A DNA stretch of 64,000 bases from Victivallaceae bacterium. GTDB lineage: Bacteria; Verrucomicrobiota; Lentisphaeria; Victivallales; Victivallaceae. Both the position numbers and the translations under genes were made by a program. Of the stretch, positions 38,353-40,485 are shown one piece after another. The notes under the pieces are model-generated. The model did no database searches. It saw nothing but the letters and a program-made list of their open reading frames with translations, and had not been told where the DNA came from. Every line of letters begins with the position of its first letter. Positions within the stretch are counted from its first letter, which is position 1. The DNA is taken from the NCBI GenBank assembly GCA_028709805.1, contig JAQUTL010000001.1, positions 248,001-312,000 on the forward strand, given 5' to 3'.

Positions 38353-38428
38353 TGGTACCGGGTATTGGATTTGAACCAATGACACGTGGATTATGATTCC
38401 ACTGCTCTACCGACTGAGCTAACCCGGC
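38353..38428 (-). tRNA. tRNA-Met (anticodon CAU)
   Basis: A 76-nt cloverleaf read on the minus strand, with CCA encoded. The acceptor is GCCGGGT paired with ACCCGGT (first pair G-U). The D-arm is GCTCAGTCGGTAGAGC, the anticodon stem-loop GTGGA-ATCATAA-TCCAC, and the T-arm TTGGTTCAAATCCAA. The anticodon is CAU. It lacks the three GC pairs of initiator anticodon stems, so it is elongator Met, or possibly Ile2 if lysidinylated. A run of seven T follows directly after CCA. Confidence 0.95.
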
Positions 38429-38487: not shown

Positions 38488-40485
38488 TCAAAAAAGTTCA
38501 AGCTGTTCCGGTCGACCGGTGTCTCCGGCGCCGCCAAGCTTGTTTTCCGGTGCGGCTCCTGCGTCATCCGGATTGTTTTCCGGCGCGGCTCCGGCGCCGA
38601 CCGGTTCAGCGGCGGATTCCCCGCTCTCCGCAGCATCGTTCACCGGAGTTTTTTCCAGCGACGTAAGAAAATCCGGCAACTCCATAATCTTCACGCCAAG
38701 CTTTTTCGCCTTTACTGTCTTGGAGCTTTTGCTGCCGATGTCGTCCGTTACCAGCAGGGAAAGCGACGAAGTCACCGAATCTGCCGCCGCATAGCCGTGC
38801 TTTGCGGCCAATTCTTCGTAATATGAACGCTTTTCCGGCATTTTTCCGGTGAAGCACACGGTTGGCCGGCCGACGTCGCCGGCGGACTCCAATGCGGTTC
38901 GTTTCAGGTCGACCGCCGCGAGCAGTTCGGCGATGAGCGGCGCTTCGGCGTGAAGCACCTCGGAGACCGCCCTGGCACGTTCGTCGCCGATTGACGGAAC
39001 GGTTTTCAGTTCGTCCGCCGACAGTCCGGAAAGTTTTTCAAGCGGATAATGGCGCAGCAGAACTTTTGCCACATTCAAGCCGATGTGCGGAATGTTCAGC
39101 GCGGCCAGAAAACGGTAGTCGGGCGCGGTGCGGGCGCTTTCGATCTCGGCGGCAAGATTGGCGGCCGACTTGTCGGCAAAACTGTCCAGTGTCAGTATCT
39201 CGGCCTTGGTCAGCCGGAAAATGTCGGCTAAAGTGCGGACGCGCAGCGCCGTCATCATTTTTCGCAGCGTGGGTTCGCCCAGCCGTTCGATGCCGAAGTT
39301 TTTTACCGCGTCGGCCAGTTTCTGAAGGTTGGTTTCAAAACACTCAGGATTGACGCAGCAAAGCTCCGGACCCTTTCGCACCAGCGGCGATCCGCAGCCG
39401 GGGCAGCGGTCGATCATAATGTTTCGCCGGTTGCTTCCAGCTTCGCGGCTGACGATATAGGGTATCACGTCTCCGGCGCGTTCCACGGTGACGATGTCGT
39501 GCAGTTGCAGGTCCATGTCGATTATATTCTGGGCGTTGTGAAGCGTGGCGCGCCTGATGGTCACGCCGCCGATCTCCACCGGGGAAAGCTCGGCCACCGG
39601 AGTCAGCGCGCTTTTCCCGAAACTCCATTCAACGCCGACAAGTTCGGTTTCGCGTCTGATCCCGGAAAATTTGAAAGCAATCTGGCCGCGCGGATGGTGA
39701 CTGGTGGCGCCGAGCGAATCGGAATAGACGGCGTCGGCAAGTTTGAACACCACCCCGTCGGTCGGATACGGAAGCGCCTCGACTTCGGCCACCAGATCGG
39801 CAAACCGCCCGGTTAATTCCTCCATCCTTATTTTGTGCGACTTCAGCCCGTAGTCCGCCAGCGTGATCTTGGCGTGCTGGCGCACCATGTCCGAAATGTC
39901 CTTCAATCCCATGATGCCGGCCACGGCGTTGCGCGAGTTCTTGTACGCGCCGCCGCCGCGTTTGACGATGTTGCGGTAGATTGTGGAAAAGTCATCGTCT
40001 CGGATCACAAGTTCGCCGCGCGCCGGGCGGTCAAGCGGACCGGTGTAGCCGGGGGACTCCAGCTCGATCAGCGGAATTTTGTCGGTAATGTCCTCGCCGT
40101 AGGTTCCGTCGCCGCGGGTGGCGAGAATGCGGCCGTCGAAATACGCCGAAATGCCGTCGTATTTCGGCTGAACCAGCAAAGGTTCGTTTTTGTCGCGGAC
40201 ACACTTCTCCGCCCAGGCGACAACCTCGTCCAGACTGTACGCCTTGTCCAGCGACAGCATCGGCTCGGCCAGTTTTATTTTTCCGCCGGCGGTCTCCGCG
40301 TTCACTGCGTGAACGGCCTCCAGCAGCGGATGGCCGGGAACGCGGCGGCGCAGTTCGATCAGCAGCGCGTCGTATTGATCGTCGCTTATTTCCGGACTGT
40401 GCAGCTCCCAGTACAGCCGGTTGTGGTGTTCAATTTCGGCGGTAAGTTGGTCGAGCGTCAGTTTTTCAAGTTCGCATTTTTCCAT
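38488..40485 (-). CDS. ligA: NAD-dependent DNA ligase LigA with extended C-terminal tail
   Basis: A 665-residue ligase with the full domain series: Ia (YDALLIEL), adenylation domain with catalytic Lys108 in QPKYDG, OB-fold (HPRGQIAFKF and VERAGDVIPYI), a Cys4 zinc finger (CPGCGSP and CCVNPEC), helix-hairpin-helix repeats and a BRCT domain (RPTVCFTGKMPEKR, about 560-635). It seals nicks during replication and repair. After BRCT comes an Ala/Gly/Pro/Glu-rich tail with a tandem GAAPEN repeat, ending at PEQLELF, which looks like a sliding-clamp binding peptide. The start has its own promoter. Confidence 0.97.
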   Translation of the reverse strand: MEKCELEKLTLDQLTAEIEHHNRLYWELHSPEISDDQYDALLIELRRRVPGHPLLEAVHAVNAETAGGKIKLAEPMLSLDKAYSLDEVVAWAEKCVRDKNEPLLVQPKYDGISAYFDGRILATRGDGTYGEDITDKIPLIELESPGYTGPLDRPARGELVIRDDDFSTIYRNIVKRGGGAYKNSRNAVAGIMGLKDISDMVRQHAKITLADYGLKSHKIRMEELTGRFADLVAEVEALPYPTDGVVFKLADAVYSDSLGATSHHPRGQIAFKFSGIRRETELVGVEWSFGKSALTPVAELSPVEIGGVTIRRATLHNAQNIIDMDLQLHDIVTVERAGDVIPYIVSREAGSNRRNIMIDRCPGCGSPLVRKGPELCCVNPECFETNLQKLADAVKNFGIERLGEPTLRKMMTALRVRTLADIFRLTKAEILTLDSFADKSAANLAAEIESARTAPDYRFLAALNIPHIGLNVAKVLLRHYPLEKLSGLSADELKTVPSIGDERARAVSEVLHAEAPLIAELLAAVDLKRTALESAGDVGRPTVCFTGKMPEKRSYYEELAAKHGYAAADSVTSSLSLLVTDDIGSKSSKTVKAKKLGVKIMELPDFLTSLEKTPVNDAAESGESAAEPVGAGAAPENNPDDAGAAPENKLGGAGDTGRPEQLELF
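38494..38590 (-). repeat. Tandem repeat in the ligA tail
   Basis: The LigA tail encodes two copies of GAAPEN plus four variable residues, framed by further GAG/AGD units. The DNA copies around 38535 and 38575 share TTTTCCGG and GCGGCTCC blocks. Slippage between copies would vary linker length without touching the terminal QLELF codons. Confidence 0.6.

Follow-up and report, generated by a model that had tools for sequence, protein, structure and literature searches.

In Escherichia coli, the β clamp has been reported to bind DNA ligase and to aid ligation (PMC6010275), and the interaction between LigA and the clamp is credited to Lopez de Saro and O'Donnell in two later papers (PMC4976356; PMC11139829). 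The E. coli enzyme is likewise an NAD+-dependent ligase, but its motif is unmapped and its affinity is given as 'ND' in a 2024 review (PMC11139829), whereas the candidate motif described below is explicit and terminal. The LigA of Helicobacter pylori contains an internal clamp-binding motif (CBM), 554-QEFIRSLF-561, supported by a co-crystal and by SPR, which its authors presented as the first reported clamp site in a prokaryotic ligase (PMC4976356). This is also a clamp-binding peptide, although it lies near the BRCT domain and has an irregular spacing, instead of ending a tether predicted to be disordered. The LigA of Mycobacterium tuberculosis does not bind its own clamp (PMC3335792), showing that ligase-clamp coupling is not universal. 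Clamps are known to stay on the DNA after the completion of an Okazaki fragment (PMC6010275 and works cited therein).

The CBMs of Pol II (QLGLF), Pol IV (QLVLGL) and the MutS of the genomes studied here (QPKLF or QLRLF) have the same grammar and the same extreme C-terminal place as the LigA motif considered here, but they belong to other enzymes, and the tether of LigA exceeds theirs in length and variability. Eukaryotic DNA ligase I, which is ATP-dependent, binds PCNA through a PIP-box in its disordered N-terminus; this is likewise a linear motif tethering a ligase to a sliding clamp, unrelated by descent to the LigA tail. In the open-access literature, we found no description of a C-terminal CBM in LigA.

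The ligase and its C-terminal tail

The window analysed, a stretch of 64,000 nucleotides from a Victivallaceae genome, contains a ligA gene (Table 1) followed on its 3′ side and on the same strand by a tRNA-Met (CAT; 38353-38428, minus strand). The adenylation, OB and HhH_2 domains of its product are clear, and the BRCT domain scores 0.9 bit under the Pfam family cut-off (20.4 vs 21.3). K108 of the KYDG motif, D110 and G111 are invariant across 53 aligned relatives, as are the four cysteines of a Zn finger (C361, C364, C377, and C382). The protein therefore presents the features of an NAD+-dependent DNA ligase: the KxDG adenylation lysine, OB, Zn finger, HhH and BRCT. A search of the genome, which is 92.7% complete, gave a single locus for NAD+-dependent ligases and, at E <= 0.001, none for ATP-dependent ones; LigA is thus the sole ligase found in this genome.

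Table 1. Features of the ligA gene and of its product (positions in the window; residues of the protein).
Feature	Position	Strand	Evidence
ligA ORF, NAD+-dependent DNA ligase, phage-type, 665 aa	38488..40485	-	PHROG 3869 match
Adenylation domain PF01653, residues 70-216, KYDG	39838..40278	-	Pfam
OB-fold domain PF03120, residues 279-347	39445..39651	-	Pfam
Helix-hairpin-helix domain PF12826 (HhH_2), residues 458-514	38944..39114	-	Pfam
BRCT domain PF00533, residues 542-601	38683..38862	-	Pfam 20.4 bits, AlphaFold2 confident fold
Disordered C-terminal tail, residues 619-665, ~47 residues past BRCT	38491..38631	-	AlphaFold2
First GAAPEN of linker, residues 632-637	38575..38592	-	Translation
Second GAAPEN of linker, residues 643-648	38542..38559	-	Translation; not conserved in relatives
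QLELF, putative C-terminal β-clamp-binding motif, residues 661-665	38491..38505	-	Translation, conservation in relatives

The translation ends in GAGAAPENNPDDAGAAPENKLGGAGDTGRPEQLELF, with GRPEQLELF as the last residues, and the QLELF codons are directly followed by the TGA stop (38490-38488). A sequence-only reading of this DNA had described LigA as ending in QLELF after a disordered-looking linker, with two GAAPEN repeats past the BRCT domain. The minus-strand translation bears out this description, both repeats were located (Table 1), and an AlphaFold2 model built on a 53-sequence alignment gives the tail a pLDDT of ~28-32 with no secondary structure, compared with values >90 for most of the core. 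QLELF itself, at a pLDDT of ~30, is thus predicted to be accessible and disordered. It fits the QxxL(x)F consensus and is one conservative change away from QLDLF. The GAAPEN repeats are private to the species and the linker of its congener is different, leaving the terminal motif as the only conserved part of the tail. As they are missing even in the congener, these repeats were rejected as a functional element, and the repeat-rich linker is incidental.

Conservation of the terminal motif

The C-termini were compared in LigA sequences of the same family and order, together with records of named Victivallis and of uncultured Lentisphaeria, most of these relatives being metagenome-assembled genomes. 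Conservation of the tail and of QLELF in close relatives had been set beforehand as the point on which the sequence-only reading should be judged, and it was largely recovered: among 72 distinct LigA of the phage-type Victivallales kind, 70 have a tail of at least 15 aa and 47 end in the strict clamp motif, an LF-like anchor being present in most of the others. The linkers differ widely in length and letters and the tails range from 16 to 76 aa, yet 55 of the 70 tailed sequences close with F, and the endings converge (QLELF, QLTLGF, QLELGF, QLELGL, QLSLF, QPELF, QGELF, and QMFFDF). The motif is thus conserved beyond its surrounding linker. In roughly a third of the sequences, the ending is degenerate and contains no Q (DDLFAGF, LLPGF, PLFD), and the motif is wholly absent in at least three members of the same type (L016, L044, and L298). 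Tailless LigA stop within ~13 residues of the BRCT domain.

Canonical LigA either stop a few residues past BRCT or carry a tail of at least 18 residues, and in the phylum sample the strict or relaxed motif is found in 18 of 19 such canonical tails. In the wider class sample, the strict terminal motif is found in 11 of 13 tailed LigA. The canonical LigA of two Victivallales genomes ends in EPEQLSLF (L318 and L319). One Victivallales-type LigA without BRCT (L299, G159:C100) still ends in EPEQDLFSLL; its genome, also from Victivallales, has a second ligase, canonical and tailless (L300, G159:C44). Many bacteria have a LigA without such a tail, and none was observed in eight LigA from plasmid-collection records, which form the whole of our sample from other phyla.

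Some tails (L063, L067, L068, L070, L071, L073, and L082) contain two clamp-like motifs separated by ~20-30 residues, as in QPELF...QLELF. These two-motif versions may provide a two-site grip on one clamp ring.

The low complexity and fast evolution of the linker, together with GAAPEN being private to the species, could suggest an unselected or proteolysis-related extension (a C-degron) whose motif arose by coincidence. The comparison with shuffled tails makes this extremely improbable. The strict motif ends 70 of 102 distinct LigA tails from one phylum, against a mean of 0.8 and a maximum of 5 in 500 shuffles, and it ends only 1 of 333 other proteins of the same loci. This pattern was partly shaped after the tails had been seen, but the published consensus QxxL(x)F, fixed a priori by others (PMC4976356), gives an excess that is smaller and still very large (45 of 102 tails vs 0.2 shuffled and 0 of 333 background proteins). 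The relaxed pattern also fits the folded end of BRCT, and hence the statistics rest on the strict and published patterns only. An ending due to chance was rejected from these shuffles and background proteins, and the recurrent changes observed on the tree and the tails with two motifs (QPELF and QLELF) also argue against coincidence. At the DNA level, a QLxLF-stop pattern searched in four genomes (~9.6 Mb) closes four frames of >100 codons, three LigA and one Cas2, the matches being complete for the window's own genome and, for the other three genomes, counted among the matches listed.

The clamp, its clients and the proposed role of the tail

The DnaN of this genome, 31% identical to that of E. 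coli, keeps most of the contact residues of the peptide pocket: R152, L155, T172, L177, P242, V247, M362, P363, and R365 (E. coli numbering). In E. coli, R152 contacts the terminal carboxylate of Pol IV (PMC11139829). Three pocket positions have changed (R246 to L, Y323 to F, and H175 to K), and the affinity could therefore differ. Clients of the clamp in the same genomes display related motifs: MutS, whose use of the clamp is already known, ends in QPKLF in this genome and in QPRLF, QLRLF, QPTLF, QLRLL, QMDLF or QLDLF in relatives, and DnaE contains an internal QGSLF. The variants L, P and G at position 2 are common to the LigA, MutS and DnaE motifs. The interpretation of QLELF as a clamp motif, first proposed from this DNA alone, is thus supported at the sequence level, both by its conservation and by the presence of the same motif family in MutS and DnaE.

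Some degenerate LigA endings, such as DDLFPGF and DGLLPGF, are acidic, F-terminated and resemble the tip of SSB, which would suit a tail serving as a peptide for another partner, as an SSB-tip mimic or a clamp-loader contact. However, the SSB of this genome and of the others compared ends in DDIPF, unlike the EQLELF of LigA, so the tail is no copy of the SSB tip and mimicry of this tip is not favoured; in addition, endings of the form Q-x-x-L-F agree with the motifs of MutS and DnaE and not with SSB tips. We consider a partner other than the clamp improbable.

The terminal motif is shared by another protein of the order. Cas2 ends in QLELF, QLTLF or, mostly, PEQLLLF, endings that fit the clamp motif (L179:413-805, minus strand, and also L234-L239, L242, L243, L245, L246, and L248-L252), and the L179 Cas2 adjoins a type II Cas1. 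Some Cas2 homologues end in SLVII. The Cas2 ending may link Cas1-Cas2 to replication, or may be a structural strand contacting Cas1.

QLELF is very probably a C-terminal clamp-binding motif recruiting LigA to β clamps at nicks. Through this motif, LigA would dock on a clamp that has stayed behind where an Okazaki fragment or a repair patch was completed, and the flexible tail of ~47 residues would allow the enzyme to reach the adjacent nick and close around it, with Pol III and MutS taking turns with LigA in the same clamp pocket. Binding to DnaN and use at Okazaki nicks are both proposals of this model. The sequence-only reading had instead supposed that a tethered ligase would remain at the replication fork; clamps left on finished Okazaki fragments suit known biology better.

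The tail could also bind the clamp mainly for repair (mismatch repair or gap sealing) instead of Okazaki joining, since the MutS of the same genomes has the same terminal motif family and could share the clamp with LigA at repair patches. Nevertheless, as the sole ligase found in the genome, LigA has to close the nicks between Okazaki fragments as well; in E. coli and Bacillus subtilis, clamps build up behind the forks (PMC6010275); and in one relative (G097) MutS ends in QLDMF although LigA is tailless, indicating no strict coupling between the two. A role mainly in repair thus appears unlikely, albeit less so than a different partner.

Probable origin of the phage-type ligase

This LigA matches the phage NAD+ ligases of PHROG 3869 with 426 bits, and it scores under the curated cut-offs of the cellular models (377.9 vs 444.45 for TIGR00575 and 350.7 vs 369 for PRK07956), which places it outside canonical cellular LigA. 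Outside the class, its nearest relatives are viral ligases with 40-46% identity (viral contigs L253-L282); some viral contigs with related ligases exceed 200 kb. In our tree, 16 viral and 13 Victivallales-type sequences form a group of 29 (SH-aLRT 99) that excludes canonical LigA, whether from the phylum or from other phyla, several of the inner branches being weak. By sequence, the LigA of this genome and of most of its order is therefore of the phage type, and in this order it would mostly stand in for the canonical enzyme, with its own replisome tether. Viral donors would be the simpler, though not the sole, reading of the direction of transfer.

The phage ligases of PHROG 3869 have the same type of catalytic core and differ in lacking the tail. 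Among the viral relatives, the majority end 1-9 residues past BRCT, and two have longer endings without the strict motif. The viral-type LigA of one family of the class (f31; L291-L295 and L297) is also tailless. The tether was thus apparently added in the cell lineage, and we infer that the viral-type gene came first and the tail later. Inheritance of the motif with the phage-type enzyme is not supported, as the viral and f31 sequences are tailless and the canonical L318 and L319 are tailed. The motif state requires seven changes on the core tree, five of them forced by well-supported branches, and each may be a gain or a loss. On this reconstruction, the motif has switched repeatedly between presence and absence, and it is found on both of the deep lineages of LigA.

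Taken further, a phage-type ligase could have displaced the ancestral cellular LigA of Victivallales, become the essential ligase of the chromosome and evolved a clamp tether, with the same tether evolving separately on the canonical LigA of other Verrucomicrobiota; one tailed ligase would then have lost its BRCT, and two-motif tails could grip both ring halves. We propose this scenario tentatively, as its chances as a whole are slightly less than even. If true, it would be an example of a viral-type enzyme built into a cellular machine.

The LigA tail would bring together a motif and a partnership that are each already known, in a form that we did not find described and that recurs across the phylum. 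The occurrence of some version of the motif in nearly all relatives suggests, from the protein endings, the repeated evolution of a built-in ligase-clamp leash in bacteria. Little is understood of the way in which bacterial LigA locates nicks behind the fork. With a C-terminal motif that is short and can be removed, ligase-clamp coupling becomes directly testable by a five-residue mutation, and the phylum offers a natural comparison between tethered and untethered ligases.
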